Source: Thioalkalivibrio sp. ALJ12
GTDB lineage: Bacteria > Pseudomonadota > Gammaproteobacteria > Ectothiorhodospirales > Ectothiorhodospiraceae
Length of the DNA: 64,000 nt
Direction: 5' to 3'
Assembly: GCF_000378305.1 (NCBI RefSeq)
Contig: NZ_KB899540.1
Coordinates: 315,924-379,923, forward strand
A program made the translations under genes and the position numbers. Below, one piece after another: positions 34,817-42,616 of the stretch. Position 1 is the stretch's first letter. Each line of letters opens with the position of its first letter. Under the pieces are notes generated by a model. It saw only the letters and a list, made by a program, of their open reading frames with translations. It did not search any database and was not told the DNA's origin.

Positions 34817-36553
34817 ATGGAGCAGCTTTCGGAGTTTGACCGACCCTGGCGTCCCGAATCCTGGCTCGGGGTAACCGGCGCCTGGCGCCTGACCGGCGTG
34901 GGCCTGGTCCTGATCCTGATGGCCGGCATCACACTGCTGGTCTATCAGACTGGCGGCACCAGCACGGCCTATCTCAACTTCATCCTGATCCCGGTACTGC
35001 TGGGCGCCGCCCTGATGGGCCTGTGGGGCGGACTGGCCTTCGGCCTGCTCGCCGGGCTTCTGCTGGGGCCTCTCATGCCCCTGAACGTGGACGAAGGTAT
35101 TGCACAGCCGACCCTCAACTGGGCAACGCGGGCAGGGATCTATCTGGTGCTGGGCGGGTTCAGCGGCTGGCTGTTCTCCCAGCTGCGCCAGCACGCAGCG
35201 CGGCTGTTCGATCAGGCCTACCACAACCCCGTGACCGGCCTGCCCAATCGCGAGTCACTGGAACAGCATATCCGCCATTTGATGGCCCAGGCGGAGGGCT
35301 CGGAGCAGCCCGCGACCCGGGTATTCGTGATCAGCCTGCAAATGGACAATTATGCGGACACGATCAGCGCCCTGGGCTTCGCCGCGGAGAGACCCCTGCT
35401 GATGGGGATTGCCGAACGACTTCAGGCCGTCGCCGGGAGTTCGGACACGCTCGTCTACCATATCCACGACGACCACTTCGCCCTGCTGCTGCCCCACCGC
35501 AGCCGCCAGGAGTGCCTGGCCACCACACAGGAGGCCGTGGAAGAGTTGCAGGCGCCGTTCGAGGTGCTCGGGCTGCCGGTTTACGTCGGGGCCCACGCCG
35601 GGGTGTCCTCTTTTCCGTTCCACGAACAGGACGACCCGCAAAGCCTGCTGACCAAGGCCTGGATGGCGATGCACGAGGCCAGTCAGTCGGGCCGGCGCTA
35701 CCGCACCTACGACCGACGCAGCAACGACGCCGGCCGCCAGACCGTGGAGCTTCTGGGCGAGCTGCAAAGCGCCCTGGAGGACGACCAGTTCCAGCTGTAC
35801 TACCAGCCCAAGGTCACCCTGCGGCGTGACGAATTGTGCGGCTTCGAGGCCCTGTTACGCTGGCAGCACCCGCACCGAGGACAGGTACCGCCGGACCGGT
35901 TCATTGCACAAGCCGAACGCACCGGGCTCATCCACGCCCTGACGCTCAAGGTGCTGGACCTGGCGATCGCCGACCTCCTCGTGCTGCGCGAGCAAGGCAT
36001 CCAGGCCCCGGTCAGTATCAATGTCTCGGCGCGCAACTTCCTCGATCCCGACTTTGCACAAACCATTATCGAGCGCATAGAAGCCGCCGGTCTCCCGCCC
36101 TGCGCGCTGGAAATCGAGTTCACCGAGACGGCCCTGATGGCCGATCCTGATCAAGTCATCGAGGCCCTGCGGCGTCTGACAGAGCGCGGGCTCGCACTCT
36201 CCATCGACGACTTCGGCACCGGATATTCCTCTCTTGCCTACCTGAGGCGACTCCCGGTGACGACCCTCAAGGTCGATCAAACCTTCGTCTCCCACATGGC
36301 CACTCAGAGGGTGGACGAGCAGATCACCCGCGCGGCCGTGGGCCTCGCACACGACCTTGGCCTGAAGGTGATTGCCGAAGGCGCGGAAGACAGCCAGACC
36401 CTCGCCATGCTGCGCGAACTGGGCTGCGACGCCGTCCAGGGCTTCGGGGTCGCCCGCCCCATGCCCTTCGGCGAGGCACTGCAATGGGCACGCCATCAGA
36501 CGGTCGAGCCCTCGTTGCGGCGCGAGTGCGCACTGGAACAGGACGATCCGTGA
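34817..36553 (+). CDS. Membrane EAL phosphodiesterase with a degenerate GGDEF domain
   Basis: A 578-residue protein with four hydrophobic segments at the N-terminus (about 25-42, 52-68, 70-88 and 104-122), then a GGDEF-like domain and an EAL domain. The cyclase motif reads HDDHF (217-221) instead of GGDEF, so cyclase activity is not expected, though it may bind GTP as a regulatory domain. The EAL domain keeps EALLRW (about 343-348), [27 protein letters not shown] and LKVDQTF, with AEGAED near the end, so it should hydrolyse cyclic-di-GMP. AAGGAA lies before the ATG. The gene is divergent from the LysR regulator. Confidence 0.9.
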
Positions 36554-36558
36554 TGATC

Positions 36559-36587
36559 TTGCGCCCGGCCGCCGACTGGGCTAAGAT
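36559..36587 (+). promoter_or_regulatory. Sigma-70 promoter of rpmB-rpmG
   Basis: TTGCGC at 36559-36564 and TAAGAT at 36582-36587 with a 17-base spacer, about 40 bases upstream of the rpmB ATG. The -35 overlaps the sequence just after the preceding gene's stop. Confidence 0.65.
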
Positions 36588-36627
36588 CCGCCGTCTTTTG
36601 CTAGACCCAATTTCCGGAGTCCCCGAG

Positions 36628-36864
36628 ATGGCCCGAGTATGTCAGGTGACCGGCAAGCGCCCGGCGACTGGTAACAACGTATCCCACGCCCACCGCAAGA
36701 CGCGGCGGCGTTTCCTGCCCAATCTGCACACCCACCGCTTCTGGGTGGAGAGCGAGAACCGCTTCGTGCGGCTGCGCGTGAGCAGCAAGGGCATGCGGAT
36801 CATCGACAAGCTGGGCATCGATGCGGTGCTCGCGGACTGCCGCGCACGCGGCGAAAAGGTGTAA
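36628..36864 (+). CDS. rpmB: 50S ribosomal protein L28
   Basis: A 78-residue ribosomal protein starting [20 protein letters not shown], followed by the basic [16 protein letters not shown] block and the C-terminal [12 protein letters not shown]. It is the normal L28 length and lacks the zinc-cysteine pairs of some other bacteria. It is followed 10 bases later by rpmG, the standard pair. The longer open frame upstream is not used; the ATG at 36628 is the family start. Confidence 0.98.
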
Positions 36865-36874
36865 GGAGCTACCC

Positions 36875-37045
36875 ATGGCAGCGAAGAGCGCACGCGACAA
36901 GATCCGCCTGGTGTCCTCCGCCGGCACCGGTCACTTCTACACCACGTCGAAGAACAAGCGGAACATGCCCGAAAAGATGGAGATCAAGAAGTTCGATCCC
37001 GTCATCCGCAAGCACGTGATGTACAAGGAAGCCAAGATCAAGTAA
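36875..37045 (+). CDS. rpmG: 50S ribosomal protein L33
   Basis: A 56-residue ribosomal protein, [20 protein letters not shown] at the start and [11 protein letters not shown] at the end, the cysteine-free form of L33 that does not need zinc. The ribosome site AAGGAG lies upstream of the ATG. A strong rho-independent terminator follows 38 bases after the stop, so rpmB-rpmG forms a two-gene operon. Confidence 0.98.
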
Positions 37046-37083
37046 TCCCTGCCCGGCGCGAGAGCGCCTGATGGCAGAGCTAT

Positions 37084-37108
37084 AAGCCCGGCTTGGCCGG
37101 GCTTTTTT
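37084..37108 (+). terminator. Rho-independent terminator after rpmG
   Basis: Perfect 9-base stem AAGCCCGGC / GCCGGGCTT with a three-base loop (TTG), followed by T residues. It ends the ribosomal protein operon. Confidence 0.93.
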
Positions 37109-37161
37109 ATTTCCTGTGGCCTCGAGTGGGCGCACCATCACGGGCACCACTCATTCGGAGC

Positions 37162-37371
37162 CTATCCTTCCCCGGCCGCTCCCTGCTGTGCCGCCGTCTC
37201 TGCCCAGCGCATCATCATGCGTCCCCACTGATGGGCGGTTGCCGGATCCAGTTCGATCTTGGTGTAACGGCCGCCATCGCGGATAATAACCCTCAGGAGA
37301 GGGACTCCCGAGTCGTGCAGGATCTGCCGCAACTCCACGACCTCACCAAACGGCGCATCAATCGACTCCAT
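37162..37371 (-). CDS. Small protein of unknown function
   Basis: A 69-residue frame, MESIDAPFGEVVELRQILHD at the start, ending in a helix with AETAAQQGAAGEG. The middle has a beta-hairpin-like stretch (VPLLRVIIRDGGRYTKIELD) followed by HQWGRMMMRW. No signal or membrane segment, and no family recognised. A GGGAG lies upstream of the ATG but at a long distance. It is antisense-oriented between rpmG and the EAL-HDOD gene, close to the terminator. The regular amino acid use makes it plausible as a gene. Confidence 0.55.
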   Translation of the reverse strand: MESIDAPFGEVVELRQILHDSGVPLLRVIIRDGGRYTKIELDPATAHQWGRMMMRWAETAAQQGAAGEG

Positions 37372-37445
37372 GATGTGTTCGCTCTCTCCCGGGCCGGCCG
37401 CGCGCAGATCGAGCCGCCTCGTTCATCAACTGGCAAAGCGCAAGC

Positions 37446-38660
37446 ATGCACCCTATTTTTGTCGGCCGGCAACCCATCTTCGATGCGCACGAGCACCTGG
37501 TCGGCTTCGAACTCCTGTTTCGCGCCGGCCACCGTAGCGAAGCGGCGGTGACCAATGGCGACGAGGCCACCTCGGACCTGCTGCGAAGCGCGTTCGTGGA
37601 TATCGGCCTGCCCCATCTGGTCGGTCCGCATCTGGCCTTCGTCAACCTGACGCGGTCCTTTCTCGACGACGACATCATTACCAGCCTGCCGCCCGAACAG
37701 GTGGTCCTGGAGATCCTCGAGGACATCGAGATCGATTCCGAGGTCGTCGCCGCGGTACAAAGGCTGAAGCAACGCGGTTTTCGCATCGCGCTGGATGACT
37801 ACCAGTTTCAGGTCCACCACTCGCCGCTGGTGGCACTGGCAGACATCGTCAAGCTCGATGTGCTGGTTTTGTCCACCGAGGCACTGGCGCGCGAGGTCGA
37901 GACGCTGCGCGCATTCGGCGTAGAGCTGCTGGCAGAGAAGGTCGAAACCGCCGAGTGCTACCACCACTGCCAGCAACTGGGTTTTCGCTACTTCCAGGGC
38001 TACCACCTGTCACACCCGCACGTGATCGAAGGCCAGCGCCTGGAGAGCCTGGAAGTCGCGCTGTTGAAGCTGCTGAAGACACTGCAGGACCGCGATCCCG
38101 AACCGTCGGAACTGGAACGTCTCATTGGCGCTGAACCCGATCTAGCCGCCCAGATCCTGCGCATCGCCAACAGCCCCGCGTACCGGGCAGAACAGCCCAC
38201 GGTCGATCTGGCTTCGGCGATCGAGCGTCTGGGACAGGGGCGAATCCGCCGCATCGGGATGCTGCTGGTGCTCAACAATGCGGCCGGACCCTCGGCCGCG
38301 GTCGAACAGGTCATGATCCGCGCCCGCATGGGGATGCTGCTCGCCCGGGCGTGCAACCTGACAGCCCCGGAGTGCGAGTGCCACTTCTCGCTGGGGATGC
38401 TCTCGGGATTGGACCGCGTACTGGGCATCCCGCTGCGTCGCATCCTGAACGAACTGCATCTGGTGCCAGAGACGGAACAGGCGCTGATCGAACACAAAGG
38501 CCCGCTCGCCCCCTGGCTGGAGACCATCGAGGCGTTCGAGGGACCGGCAAACCCGCCCCCCGCCGGCGAATCCCCGGTGGCGCCACAGGTTGCCAGCCGG
38601 CTCTACCTGGAATCGGTACGCTGGACCGAGGACATACTCGACGCGCTGTCCAGGACCTGA
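37446..38660 (+). CDS. EAL-HDOD domain signalling protein (YuxH-like)
   Basis: A 404-residue cytoplasmic protein in two parts. The N-terminal EAL-like domain (about 1-200) begins HPIFVGRQPIFDAHEHLVGFE. Its motifs are altered: FELLFR in place of EALxR, LEILED, and LDDYQFQ where active enzymes have DDFGTG. The HDOD domain (about 215-360) has PDLAAQILRIANSPAYR and the AIERLGQGRIRRIGMLL helices. Proteins of this class usually bind rather than degrade cyclic-di-GMP and act in motility or other responses. The stop lies three bases before the chorismatase-like gene, so the two are probably one operon with mutM. Confidence 0.87.
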   Translation: MHPIFVGRQPIFDAHEHLVGFELLFRAGHRSEAAVTNGDEATSDLLRSAFVDIGLPHLVGPHLAFVNLTRSFLDDDIITSLPPEQVVLEILEDIEIDSEVVAAVQRLKQRGFRIALDDYQFQVHHSPLVALADIVKLDVLVLSTEALAREVETLRAFGVELLAEKVETAECYHHCQQLGFRYFQGYHLSHPHVIEGQRLESLEVALLKLLKTLQDRDPEPSELERLIGAEPDLAAQILRIANSPAYRAEQPTVDLASAIERLGQGRIRRIGMLLVLNNAAGPSAAVEQVMIRARMGMLLARACNLTAPECECHFSLGMLSGLDRVLGIPLRRILNELHLVPETEQALIEHKGPLAPWLETIEAFEGPANPPPAGESPVAPQVASRLYLESVRWTEDILDALSRT

Positions 38661-38663
38661 CTG

Positions 38664-39608
38664 ATGGCACCCCACCTGTACAACCGACTCGTCTCGCCCG
38701 GGACGACGCTCCAGGACGGCCTCCACGTGCGACTGGATGCCCCCGTGGGGATCCAGGCCGGGGCCGGCCGGATCGAGGTCGCCCCCGGCCTCGAGGCCCT
38801 GGCCCCGGATCTCTATATCGAGAGCTGGTGTGGAAACGGCCCAGCACGTTCAACGAACGCCACGCCCCTGCATCTGCTGGAGTTCGATGATGTTCTGTTC
38901 GCCGCCTGGCAGGGCCCGGACCGACCTTTGCGCGAACAAACCGAGCAGGCCTACCGTCAGCTCCTGAACGCCTGCAGGGAACGCGGCTTCGAGCACCCGG
39001 CACGCATCTGGAACTATTTTTCCGACATCCACGGTGACGAACAGGGCCAGGAACGCTACCAGGCCTTCTGTATCGGGCGCGCCGAGGCGCTGGGGGCGCT
39101 CGAAGTCCCGCTGGGCAGCATGCCTGCAGCCACCGCAATCGGCACCCGGCAACCGGGCCTGTTCGTCTACCTGCTTGCCACCCGTGCCCCGGCCCGTGCG
39201 ATCGAAAATCCGCGCCAGGTCAGCGCCTACCACTACCCCGAACGCTACAGCCCGAGAAGCCCGGCCTTCGCGCGCGCCACGCTGCTGCTGACCGCGACCG
39301 GGCCCATGCTGATGGTCTCCGGCACGGCGAGTATCGTCGGTCACGAAAGCCGCCACCCGGACGATGTGGTGGCCCAGGCGCGCGAGACGGTAACCAACCT
39401 CCAGGCCCTGCACGACACGGCAGGGCGCGAACTCCCCGGCCCCGCGTGGTTGCGGGTCTACCTGCGGCGTCCCAAAGATCGCACCGCCGTTGCAGGGGTG
39501 ATCGCGGACCACTACAAGGCAATGAAGCCGGGCCCCGTCATCCAGTGGGCCCGGGGCGACATCTGCCGGCCAGAACTCCTGCTGGAAATCGAGGGCGTTC
39601 ATGCCTGA
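38664..39608 (+). CDS. Chorismatase family protein (FkbO/Hyg5/XanB2-like)
   Basis: A 314-residue protein with hallmarks of the chorismatase family: RIWNYFSDIHGDEQGQERYQ, AFCIGRAEALG, MPAATAIGTRQPG, AYHYPERYSPRSPAFARA and the SGTASIVGHESRHPDD block. It ends in LLLEIEG, where the family has a catalytic Glu. Family enzymes convert chorismate to dihydroxycyclohexadiene carboxylate, 3-hydroxybenzoate or a mixture with 4-hydroxybenzoate. Which product is made here cannot be told. The gene follows the EAL-HDOD gene with a three-base gap and overlaps mutM by eight bases. It was once annotated as pteridine-dependent dioxygenase-like. Confidence 0.85.
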   Translation: MAPHLYNRLVSPGTTLQDGLHVRLDAPVGIQAGAGRIEVAPGLEALAPDLYIESWCGNGPARSTNATPLHLLEFDDVLFAAWQGPDRPLREQTEQAYRQLLNACRERGFEHPARIWNYFSDIHGDEQGQERYQAFCIGRAEALGALEVPLGSMPAATAIGTRQPGLFVYLLATRAPARAIENPRQVSAYHYPERYSPRSPAFARATLLLTATGPMLMVSGTASIVGHESRHPDDVVAQARETVTNLQALHDTAGRELPGPAWLRVYLRRPKDRTAVAGVIADHYKAMKPGPVIQWARGDICRPELLLEIEGVHA

Positions 39609-40416
39609 GCTCCCCGAGGTCGAGACCACCCGGCGGGGCCTGTCACCTCTTCTTGAAGGCCAGACCATCGAACGGCTCGAGGTACGCAATGGACGCCTGC
39701 GCTGGCCGGTGCCGGAGGAGCTGCCCGGGCGTCTGGCCGGGGCCCGCATCACGACATTGGCGCGACGAGCCAAATACCTGCTGCTGGACACCGACCGTGG
39801 CGGGGCACTATTGCATCTCGGTATGTCCGGCTCGCTGCGCCACTGCACGCCCGACGTCCCGCTGCGCACGCACGATCACCTGATCCTGCATCTGACGAAT
39901 GGCTCGCAGGTGCGCTTTCACGATCCTCGCCGCTTCGGGTGCTGTCTGCCGCTGCCGGAGACCGGTGAGGTGCACCCTCTGCTGGCCGCCCTGGGGCCGG
40001 AACCACTCGATGCCACATTCAACGGCGACTACCTGTTCCACCGCAGCCGCGGGCGCCGGGGCCCGGTCAAGGCCTTCATCATGGATCAGGATATCGTGGT
40101 CGGGGTGGGCAACATCTATGCGACCGAGGCGCTCTTCCTGGCCGGGATCCGTCCGGGGCGGGCCGCCGGGCGCGTAACCCGGGCGGAATACGAACGACTG
40201 GCCGGATTCATCCGCACCGTGCTGGGCGCGGCGATCGAACAGGGCGGCACAACCCTGCGCGACTTCCTGCGCGAGGACGGGACACACGGGTATTTTCGCC
40301 AATCACTGCGGGTCTACGGGCGCGCCGGAGAGCCGTGCCTGGAGTGTGCGACACCGCTGCGCAACCGGCGCATCGGGCAGCGCGCCTCGGCCTACTGCCC
40401 GACCTGCCAACGGTAG
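39601..40416 (+). CDS. mutM: Formamidopyrimidine-DNA glycosylase
   Basis: Removes 8-oxoguanine and formamidopyrimidines from DNA and nicks the abasic site. The 271-residue protein has the catalytic N-terminus MPELPEVETTRRGL (Pro2, Glu3), the conserved Lys in RRAKYLLL, the helix-two-turn-helix region QDIVVGVGNIYATEALF and the C-terminal zinc finger with CLEC and CPTC pairs. It overlaps the chorismatase-like gene by eight bases. It faces spoT, which converges from the other strand. Confidence 0.97.
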   Translation: MPELPEVETTRRGLSPLLEGQTIERLEVRNGRLRWPVPEELPGRLAGARITTLARRAKYLLLDTDRGGALLHLGMSGSLRHCTPDVPLRTHDHLILHLTNGSQVRFHDPRRFGCCLPLPETGEVHPLLAALGPEPLDATFNGDYLFHRSRGRRGPVKAFIMDQDIVVGVGNIYATEALFLAGIRPGRAAGRVTRAEYERLAGFIRTVLGAAIEQGGTTLRDFLREDGTHGYFRQSLRVYGRAGEPCLECATPLRNRRIGQRASAYCPTCQR

Positions 40417-40444
40417 CGAGCCGCGCACGCCCGGGAAACGCTAA

Positions 40445-42616
40445 CTAGCCGCGCTGACGCGCGATCCGCAGCACATCCGGAAGACGCCGCAGGCCGCGCA
40501 TGATCTGGGCCAGGTGCTGACGATCACTGACGGTCAACAGGAAGGTCATCGCGGTGGAGTGGCCATCCTGCTCGTTGAACGAGATGTGCTCGATATTCGA
40601 GCCGTGATCGGCGATCACGGCCGCCATGTCGGCCAACGCACCGCGCCGGTTGGCGGTGCGGGTGCGCACCGCCGCGGTGAATTGCAGTTCCGGCTCGTGC
40701 GACCACTCGAGCGCGATCGTCTTGTCCGCCCGGTCGCGGCTCTCGTGCAGCACGTTGCGGCAGCTCTCCCGGTGCACGACCAGCCCACGCCCCGCGCTCA
40801 ACTGGCCGATAATCGGGTCACCCGGGATCGGGTGGCAGCAGCGGGCGTAGTTCAGCACCAGCCCCTCGGTACCCTTGACCGCCAGGGTAGTCTGAGTCGT
40901 GTTGTCGGCGTCCGCGCTCTCCTTGCCCACCATCTGGCGCGCGACCAGCGAGGCCATGCGGTTGCCCAGCCCGATATCCACCAGCAGGCTGTCCAGGTCC
41001 TGTAGCTGCATCGCGTCCAGCAGCTGATCCAGACGCGCCGGCGAGATCTGCTTGAGCGAGGCGTCCAGCGCGCTCAGGGCCTTCTCCAACAGGCGCTCGC
41101 CGAGGGCCCGGGCCTCGTCCGACTGCATCGACTTCAGGCAATGCCGGATACCAGAGCGGGCCTTTCCGGTGACGACGAAGGACAGCCAGGCAGGGTTGGG
41201 GCGCGCGCCAGGCGCGGTGACAATCTCGACCGTCTGTCCACTCTGAAGGCGTACCGAAAGCGGCGCCAGCTGGCGATCGATCTTCGCGGCCACGCAGCGG
41301 TTGCCGACATCGGAATGCACCGCATATGCGAAGTCGATCGGGGTCGCATCGCGCGGTAGAACCAGAATGTCGCCCCCGGGGGTGAAGGTGTAGACCTCGT
41401 CCGGGAACAGATCGACCTTCACGTTCTCCAGGAACTCAATGGAGTTGCCGACGCTGTTCTGGATCTCCAGCACATCCTTAAGCCACTCGCGGGCCCGGCT
41501 CTGCGCGGTTCGCGCGGACTCGCCCCCGGCCTTGTACTGCCAGTGCGCGGCGATCCCGCTCTCGGCCACGCGATCCATCTCGGTGGAGCGGATCTGCACC
41601 TCGATCGGGATGGCCTGCGGCCCGAACAGGATGGTATGCAGCGACTGGTAGCCGTTCGACTTGGGGATCGCGATGTAGTCCTTGAAGCGCCCCGGCACCG
41701 GCTTGTAGAGGTTGTGCACCACGCCCAGCGAGCGATAGCAGGTGTCGACATCGTCGACGATGATGCGGATGGCGAAAACGTCGAACACCTCCTCGAACGA
41801 GTGGTGCTTGTCGCGCATCTTGCGATAGATGCTGTACAGGCTCTTTTCGCGCCCGGAGATGCGCCCGACGATCCCCGCCGCCTCCATGCGCGAGCAGATG
41901 GCCTGCTCGATGTTCTTCATTGGCTCGCGCCGGTTGCCCCCGGCCCGCTGCACGGCGCGCTCCAGCACGGCGGCGCGCCAGGGATGCTTGGCGGAAAAGC
42001 CGAGCTGCTCCAGCTCGCGGCGGATCGCGTTCATCCCCAGGCGCTGGGCGATCGGCGCATAGATCTCCAGGGTTTCCTTGGCGATGCGGCGGCGCTTGTC
42101 CGGGCGCATCACGCCCAGGGTGCGCATATTGTGCAGGCGGTCGGCCAGCTTGATCAGGATCACCCGGATGTCGCGGGTGATCGCCAGCATCATCTTGCGG
42201 AAGTTCTCCGCCTGCGCCTCGGCCTTGGACTGGAACTGCAGGTGGGTCAGCTTGGAGACACCATCGACCAGCTCGGCCACCTCCTCGCCGAACTCGGCGT
42301 GGATGCGGTCCTTGCTGGTGGCGGTGTCCTCCATGACGTCATGGAGGATCGCGGCGCAGATGGCCTTGTGGTCCATCCGCATCTCGGCCATGGTCCGGGC
42401 CACGGCCAGCGGGTGGTAGATATACGGCTCGCCGGTCTTGCGGGTCTGGCCTTCGTGGGCCTCCGCGCCCAGCAGATAGGCGCGATAGACCTCCTCGACT
42501 TCGTCCGGCTCGAGATAGGACTCGAGCTCGGAACACAGATCGCTGATCAGGAATCGGGTCGAGTCACCGGGAACCGGCGATGCGGCCCCGGGCGCGGCTG
42601 GCTGCCCAGCGGCCAT
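40445..42616 (-). CDS. spoT: Bifunctional (p)ppGpp synthetase/hydrolase SpoT
   Basis: Sets the level of the stringent alarmone (p)ppGpp. The 723-residue protein has an N-terminal HD hydrolase domain with intact residues (YHPLAVARTM, AAILHDVMEDT, LIKLADRLHNMRTL). The synthetase domain follows (YSIYRKMRDKHHSF, FKDYIAIPKSNGYQSLHT), then TGS (VYTFTPGGDILVLP), the zinc-finger/helical part with NYARCCHPIPGD, and a C-terminal ACT domain. An intact HD and the position next to rpoZ and gmk favour SpoT over RelA. Only 13 bases separate it from rpoZ. Confidence 0.95.
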   Translation of the reverse strand: MAAGQPAAPGAASPVPGDSTRFLISDLCSELESYLEPDEVEEVYRAYLLGAEAHEGQTRKTGEPYIYHPLAVARTMAEMRMDHKAICAAILHDVMEDTATSKDRIHAEFGEEVAELVDGVSKLTHLQFQSKAEAQAENFRKMMLAITRDIRVILIKLADRLHNMRTLGVMRPDKRRRIAKETLEIYAPIAQRLGMNAIRRELEQLGFSAKHPWRAAVLERAVQRAGGNRREPMKNIEQAICSRMEAAGIVGRISGREKSLYSIYRKMRDKHHSFEEVFDVFAIRIIVDDVDTCYRSLGVVHNLYKPVPGRFKDYIAIPKSNGYQSLHTILFGPQAIPIEVQIRSTEMDRVAESGIAAHWQYKAGGESARTAQSRAREWLKDVLEIQNSVGNSIEFLENVKVDLFPDEVYTFTPGGDILVLPRDATPIDFAYAVHSDVGNRCVAAKIDRQLAPLSVRLQSGQTVEIVTAPGARPNPAWLSFVVTGKARSGIRHCLKSMQSDEARALGERLLEKALSALDASLKQISPARLDQLLDAMQLQDLDSLLVDIGLGNRMASLVARQMVGKESADADNTTQTTLAVKGTEGLVLNYARCCHPIPGDPIIGQLSAGRGLVVHRESCRNVLHESRDRADKTIALEWSHEPELQFTAAVRTRTANRRGALADMAAVIADHGSNIEHISFNEQDGHSTAMTFLLTVSDRQHLAQIMRGLRRLPDVLRIARQRG

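Follow-up and report, generated by a model that had tools for sequence, protein, structure and literature searches.

What does a chorismatase-like enzyme supply in Thioalkalivibrio when its gene overlaps mutM? A preliminary description of the locus had offered two answers, that the enzyme feeds an aryl-polyene (APE) pigment or that it replaces the chorismate lyase UbiC. We analyzed a stretch of 64,000 nucleotides (the window) together with its source genome (G000; 2.78 Mb, 99.97% complete), a set of 47 genomes from the same family, 38 of them of good quality, and 232 genomes from the same class. We put the probability at roughly 0.77 that the mutM-linked chorismatase mainly makes 4-hydroxybenzoate for UbiA in a genome without UbiC, and that the pigment head group comes more likely from a second chorismatase encoded elsewhere. 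The features of the window that matter here are the following.

36628..36864, + strand: rpmB, encoding ribosomal protein L28 (name read from the sequence), upstream of the chorismatase gene
37084..37104, + strand: terminator-like hairpin downstream of rpmB and ahead of the EAL-HDOD gene, a consensus match only
37446..38660, + strand: gene for an EAL-HDOD protein, ending 3 bases upstream of the chorismatase gene
38664..39608, + strand: FkbO/Hyg5/XanB2-family chorismatase gene, whose product is proposed to supply 4-hydroxybenzoate for ubiquinone
39601..40416, + strand: mutM (formamidopyrimidine-DNA glycosylase), its start overlapping the chorismatase stop by 8 bases

A predicted chorismatase of the Hyg5/XanB2 kind

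The chorismatase reading frame is intact between exactly the coordinates first proposed for it, starts with ATG and encodes 314 amino acids. The motifs RIWNYF, AYHYPERY and SGTASIVGHESRH, from which the preliminary description had called an FkbO/Hyg5/XanB2-type chorismatase, are all found in the translation, and many of their residues are invariant among 21 aligned relatives. This call is borne out by a match to the Pfam profile PF21168 (FkbO_Hyg5-like_N; E 1.1e-30; 106.6 bits, cut-off 27) and by phmmer matches to PDB sequences of Hyg5 (5ag3, 4.7e-45) and FkbO (4bps, 2.5e-34). The NCBIfam model for FkbO/Hyg5 chorismatases, TIGR04444, matches residues 27-312 with an E-value of 1.3e-58 and 198.7 bits, below its curated cut-off of 325, a value reached by no match among the 47 family genomes or the 232 class genomes. 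An AlphaFold2 model built from the 21 relatives has a mean pLDDT of 93. The top seven Foldseek matches of this model are Hyg5 and FkbO chains (TM-score by query length 0.85-0.90), with 5a3k, 5ag3 and 4bps matching best, and they are followed mostly by YjgF-family chains. Judged by its sequence and modeled fold, the product is a predicted chorismatase of the Hyg5/XanB2 kind.

A candidate 4-hydroxybenzoate source in genomes without UbiC

The source genome contains a UbiA match over the cut-off. A search for UbiC (PF04345) that detects the E. coli control returned no match in this genome, and none was found there for an Rv2949c-type lyase or for MqnA; MenD gave only two matches, both sub-threshold. 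The suggestion that the chorismatase replaces UbiC is thus well supported. The mutM-linked enzyme would convert chorismate to 4-hydroxybenzoate, the substrate of UbiA, and would so allow ubiquinone to be made without UbiC. Some 4-hydroxybenzoate also forms from chorismate spontaneously (PMC7170507). The enzyme would do the same job as UbiC with a protein of a different family, and the copy whose reading frame overlaps mutM is the one kept throughout the family. In this way a specific gene would fill the hole in the ubiquinone pathway of Thioalkalivibrio and its relatives.

There is precedent in XanB2, which is described as making 4-hydroxybenzoate for ubiquinone (PMC5069965). XanB2 (Xanthomonas) and ArcB (Azoarcus BH72), both of the CH-III type, belong to the same family and have the same key residues as the mutM-linked enzyme, as compared via a stand-in from Azoarcus sp. 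Aa7 (L145), and the likeness to XanB2 extends to the proposed replacement of a UbiC that the genome lacks (PMC5069965, PMC3949708). Unlike its counterparts, the mutM-linked gene lies outside a polyene cluster and is apparently co-translated with mutM, and the Thioalkalivibrio genome has a second chorismatase.

Chorismatase is present in 42 of the 47 family genomes, including all 38 good-quality ones. UbiA is matched in 46, over the cut-off in 42, and one 96% complete genome (G038) has a chorismatase with no UbiA match. UbiC occurs in two of the 47 genomes (G014 and G037); both also have the mutM-linked chorismatase, which would be retained in them through recency or for a different reason. The only Rv2949c-type match among the 47 genomes is the UbiC of G014 itself. 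The region around this UbiC gene (L024, G014:C1:902426-902950) also holds halogenase-type matches to PF04820 and an acyltransferase-like gene (G014:C1:897150-903709), as if UbiC had arrived with another cluster.

UbiC and chorismatase avoid each other across the 232 class genomes, where chorismatase is found in 48, UbiC in 145 and neither in 52; the 13 genomes with both compare with about 30 expected (Fisher p 2.7e-8, uncorrected for kinship). By analogy with XanB2, this distribution fits a chorismatase that has taken over 4-hydroxybenzoate supply where UbiC is missing. The class genomes with both enzymes and those with neither count against such a role, as do G014, G037 and G038 in the family. 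We examined 41 of the 48 class loci, having dropped the weakest matches (G139, G148, G171 and G258) as well as G000, G007 and G020, which were already in the family set; a scan of genome contigs kept the best 80 of 527 relatives. Polyene genes neighbor the chorismatase in 9 of 10 class loci with UbiC and in 12 of 31 without it. A locus was scored in this way if tblastn matched one or more core cluster proteins at over 55 bits, and some loci qualify through one match alone, to an exporter, a ketosynthase or an ACP. mutM is found directly beside the chorismatase in none of the 10 loci with UbiC and in 6 of the 31 without it.

An aryl-polyene cluster and a second chorismatase

The preliminary description had named an intact ubiC together with a complete absence of polyene genes as a finding that would weaken its proposal. 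The genome shows the reverse, ubiC being absent and polyene genes present, and the proposal is therefore not weakened on this account. Two features outside the window are concerned.

G000:C1, about 958.5-968.9 kb: APE cluster, on a contig other than that of the mutM-linked chorismatase
G000:C2:222539-223540: second chorismatase, beside a gene for a UbiE-like methyltransferase

The cluster encodes an ACP, an AMP-ligase, a FabA-like dehydratase, an acyltransferase, a LolA-like protein, an RND-like exporter, two ketosynthases, a weakly matching ApeP-like dehydratase, FabG and a glycosyltransferase. This content resembles aryl-polyene gene lists given in two publications (PMC3949708, PMC8253772) and is like that of the xanthomonadin, arcuflavin and E. 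coli APE clusters. In contrast to the known clusters, the second chorismatase and the methyltransferase of the source genome are located on another contig. The ApeP-like profile PF22817, matched in 9 of 47 genomes and nowhere over its cut-off, was too weak as a cluster marker, and we therefore replaced it by PF13723. The latter is present in 15 of the 47 family genomes, namely the 12 genomes with two chorismatases, G012, G022 and G032, the last of which is 66% complete and has no chorismatase that we could find.

The mutM-linked gene lies outside the cluster and, rather than occurring only together with it as a gene of the APE pathway would, is found in every one of the 24 good-quality family genomes without PF13723. 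For these reasons, and because the second copy is found only with APE, a pigment role is unsupported for the mutM-linked gene. The genome thus does carry an APE cluster, as the pigment proposal would have it, but the proposal is probably wrong for this particular gene.

The second copy behaves differently. Both chorismatases occur together in 12 of the 47 family genomes, all from the genus of the source genome, and all 12 genomes bearing the second copy have PF13723; G016, for example, has the APE cluster and both chorismatases, and G043 has neither the marker nor the second copy. At the second locus relA-like and hydrolase-like genes are followed by the chorismatase, the UbiE-like methyltransferase and a pyrC-like gene, the names relA, hydrolase and pyrC being read from sequence. 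Close orthologues of the methyltransferase (at least 72% identity, the next best match having 37%) are found in 14 genomes, which are exactly the 14 good-quality genomes bearing the APE marker. Two of these, G012 and G022, have the APE cluster and the methyltransferase with only the mutM-linked chorismatase; here the methyltransferase is again found next to pyrC, with no chorismatase at that site. In three Competibacteraceae loci (L129, L130 and L143) a chorismatase is directly followed by a relative of the methyltransferase within a polyene cluster. The Competibacteraceae arrangement, the co-distribution of methyltransferase and marker, and the restriction of the second copy to cluster-bearing genomes together support the view that second chorismatase and methyltransferase are the head-group module of the polyene pathway, detached from its cluster. 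The polyene head group would then more likely be made by the second chorismatase, proposed to work with the APE cluster on C1, and second chorismatase and cluster are better candidates for the yellow pigment than the mutM-linked gene. The gene or genes responsible for natronochrome were still to be identified according to a 2011 publication (PMC3368412), and our analysis provides concrete candidates for natronochrome and chloronatronochrome. In a literature search whose coverage mostly excludes subscription journals, we found no publication joining Thioalkalivibrio with an aryl polyene or with a halogenase.

A halogenase-like gene near the cluster

As a further difference from known aryl-polyene clusters, a flavin halogenase-like gene is located near the cluster in 8 of the 15 marker-bearing genomes (G017, G018, G020, G021, G023, G026, G032 and G040), not including the source genome. 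In all eight genomes it shares a contig with the ketosynthase marker, at a distance of about 8-9 kb. Two examples are placed at the ACP end of the polyene cluster.

L189:3264-4622 (G018): flavin halogenase-like gene
L190:15056-16504 (G020): flavin halogenase-like gene

WxWxIP is a motif that marks flavin halogenases, and the proteins from G018 and G020 contain GGGPAG and WIWMIP; the model that fits them best is the CmlS halogenase, at scores far below its cut-off. PF04820 is loose as a marker, with matches in 26 of 47 family genomes (20 over the cut-off) and in 5 of 14 control genomes including E. coli, and we counted only the eight genomes with a match pair near the polyene cluster (best E 5.5e-14 to 4.1e-17). 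In the source genome PF04820 finds nothing at the APE cluster, and its two weak matches are to other parts of C1. The halogenase-like gene would fit as a candidate for chloronatronochrome.

Origin and co-distribution of the second copy

Chorismatase trees were built on subsets of 88 and 57 rows, and each copy forms one clade among the 88 rows sampled. Quick trees join the two Thioalkalivibrio clades with an SH-aLRT of 91, together with one long outside row, for the 88 rows and of 93 for the 57 rows. Joined clades would suggest duplication as the origin of the second copy; an AU test on the 57 rows (p 0.435) does not reject a clade that holds the mutM-linked genes and leaves the second copy out, and the second copy may have arisen by either duplication or transfer. 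In a tree of MutM from 42 genomes, second copy and cluster need two changes each and yield only one or two independent pairs; one genome, G025, has neither. The co-distribution of second copy and cluster rests on few evolutionary events. Its Fisher p values of 3.4e-8 (38 genomes) and 6.7e-5 (23 genomes of the genus) are therefore unreliable if taken at face value.

Product type and a proposed division of labor

We infer both the products of the two chorismatases and the division of labor between them. In its most complete form our proposal would have the XanB2-type jobs divided, with the mutM-linked copy as a dedicated 4-hydroxybenzoate synthase, and with the second copy, the methyltransferase, the APE cluster and, in eight genomes, the halogenase forming the natronochrome/chloronatronochrome pathway; this is tentative, and we give it slightly less than even odds.

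The mutM-linked enzyme might instead be bifunctional like XanB2, producing 3- and 4-hydroxybenzoate for ubiquinone and pigment, while the second copy adds flux or another head-group acid. In Xanthomonas a single XanB2 is reported to make both hydroxybenzoates, and ArcB likewise yields both acids (PMC3949708). In addition, residues A158, G220 and C301 are identical in the mutM-linked copy, the second copy and nearly all polyene-linked relatives. As XanB2 is bifunctional, and as the mutM-linked chorismatase is the only one that accompanies cluster and methyltransferase in G012 and G022, the mutM-linked clade may serve the pigment too; these two genomes offer a natural comparison with relatives that have two chorismatases. 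Two observations speak against a bifunctional enzyme: the second copy is found in 12 genomes, always with the cluster and beside a methyltransferase that tracks it, and the mutM-linked gene is kept in genomes without the cluster. Both are compatible with dual use. We regard the bifunctional enzyme as rather unlikely, at something under one chance in three.

The mutM-linked enzyme was further compared with the CH-II enzyme Hyg5, a 3-hydroxybenzoate synthase (5ag3, 5a3k). Its predicted fold is that of Hyg5, and E308, C301 and G220 correspond to Hyg5 E334, C327 and G240 in the phmmer/PDB alignment. Glu-334 is described as the catalytic residue of Hyg5 (PMC7170507), and E308 at its position is kept in 54 of 54 family chorismatase genes. 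When the CH-II residue list (PMC7170507) is transferred by a constant numbering offset and that alignment, the third CH-II glycine falls on Ala158, where Hyg5 has Gly; the CH-II set of Gly/Gly/Cys is thus incomplete, its first site being Ala158, with G220 and C301 present. Ala158 is common to all 54 family chorismatase genes and to 24 of 25 polyene-linked relatives. At the positions of Hyg5 G240 and C327 the mutM-linked enzyme has Gly and Cys, in contrast to two Ala residues in the aligned FkbO. This residue pattern makes a strict Hyg5 or FkbO type less likely, with the proviso, stated in one account of XanB2 (PMC3949708), that the reaction of a chorismatase is not accurately predictable from alignment alone. 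The two proteins also differ in that identity to Hyg5 is 32-33% in structural alignments and that no polyketide cluster lies beside the mutM-linked gene. We therefore consider it very improbable that the enzyme is a strict Hyg5 forming only 3-hydroxybenzoate for a pigment or a diffusible signal: Hyg5 is its best PDB match, but such an enzyme would leave UbiA without a recognizable 4-hydroxybenzoate source, and genomes that have no polyene genes still carry the gene. Least probable of all is an FkbO-like (CH-I) enzyme whose product, a dihydroxycyclohexadiene acid, would go into a secondary metabolite, because in spite of the similar predicted fold (4bps, TM 0.89 by query length) the residues differ as outlined and UbiA would again be left without 4-hydroxybenzoate.

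Three positions separate the 42 mutM-linked genes from the 12 second copies, 133 (Q/R), 143 (L/F) and 246 (L/I), and at these the second-copy residue is the commonest among the 25 polyene-linked relatives (56, 64 and 60%, respectively). Q133 is found in 0 of 10 class loci with UbiC and in 13 of 31 without it (Fisher p 0.017, for a position picked after looking), and the pattern at 143 is not clean across the 41 class loci. We tried these residues as a signature of product type and set them aside as evidence.

mutM as constant partner of the chorismatase

The arrangement of EAL-HDOD gene, chorismatase and mutM in the preliminary description is confirmed, and the spacing is tight on both sides. 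The hairpin downstream of rpmB suggests that these three genes may form a unit transcribed apart from rpmB; a scan of 36400-40600 for sigma-70-type promoters found nothing. The overlap between chorismatase and mutM is kept in all 42 family genomes with a mutM-linked chorismatase, and in the 41 genomes other than the source it measures 8 bases (28 genomes), 17 bases (12) or 22 bases (1). An EAL-HDOD gene is found directly upstream in 17 of the 42; among the other 41 it lies within 70 bases in 16 and more than 2 kb away in 3, and none was found in 22. mutM is thus the constant partner of the chorismatase and the EAL-HDOD gene an optional neighbor. An upstream rpmB is seen in 36 of the other 41 genomes, the exceptions being G023, G031 and G042, with less than 1.5 kb of upstream sequence, and G011 and G046, with more than 5 kb.

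The EAL-HDOD neighbor had raised the question of pigment synthesis regulated by cyclic di-GMP. Such a link is unsupported, because adjacency is limited to the 17 genomes and includes three without APE (G005, G006 and G025). In favor of the idea, each of the 14 good-quality APE-bearing genomes has the EAL-HDOD gene immediately before the chorismatase. The start of the Pfam EAL profile is unmatched in the EAL-HDOD protein and one conserved loop diverges; some of its EAL residues align with those of a neighboring GGDEF-EAL protein. The GGDEF-EAL gene (34817-36553), which has a strong EAL domain (2e-70), is located just upstream of rpmB, and rpmB is therefore flanked by two cyclic-di-GMP-type genes. 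A GGDEF-EAL gene is found at the same place in 11 of the other family loci fetched.

A chorismatase directly upstream of mutM is also seen in two Thiotrichaceae loci (L126 and L138), and the pairing is thus wider than the family of the source genome. In four class relatives (L197, L198, L230 and L228, from G084, G113, G123 and G235) polyene genes, chorismatase and mutM share one neighborhood, with mutM 0.8-1.7 kb downstream and, in two of the four, a UbiE-like methyltransferase. The mutM link may have been left behind by a polyene cluster that once lay here, or the opposite may hold.
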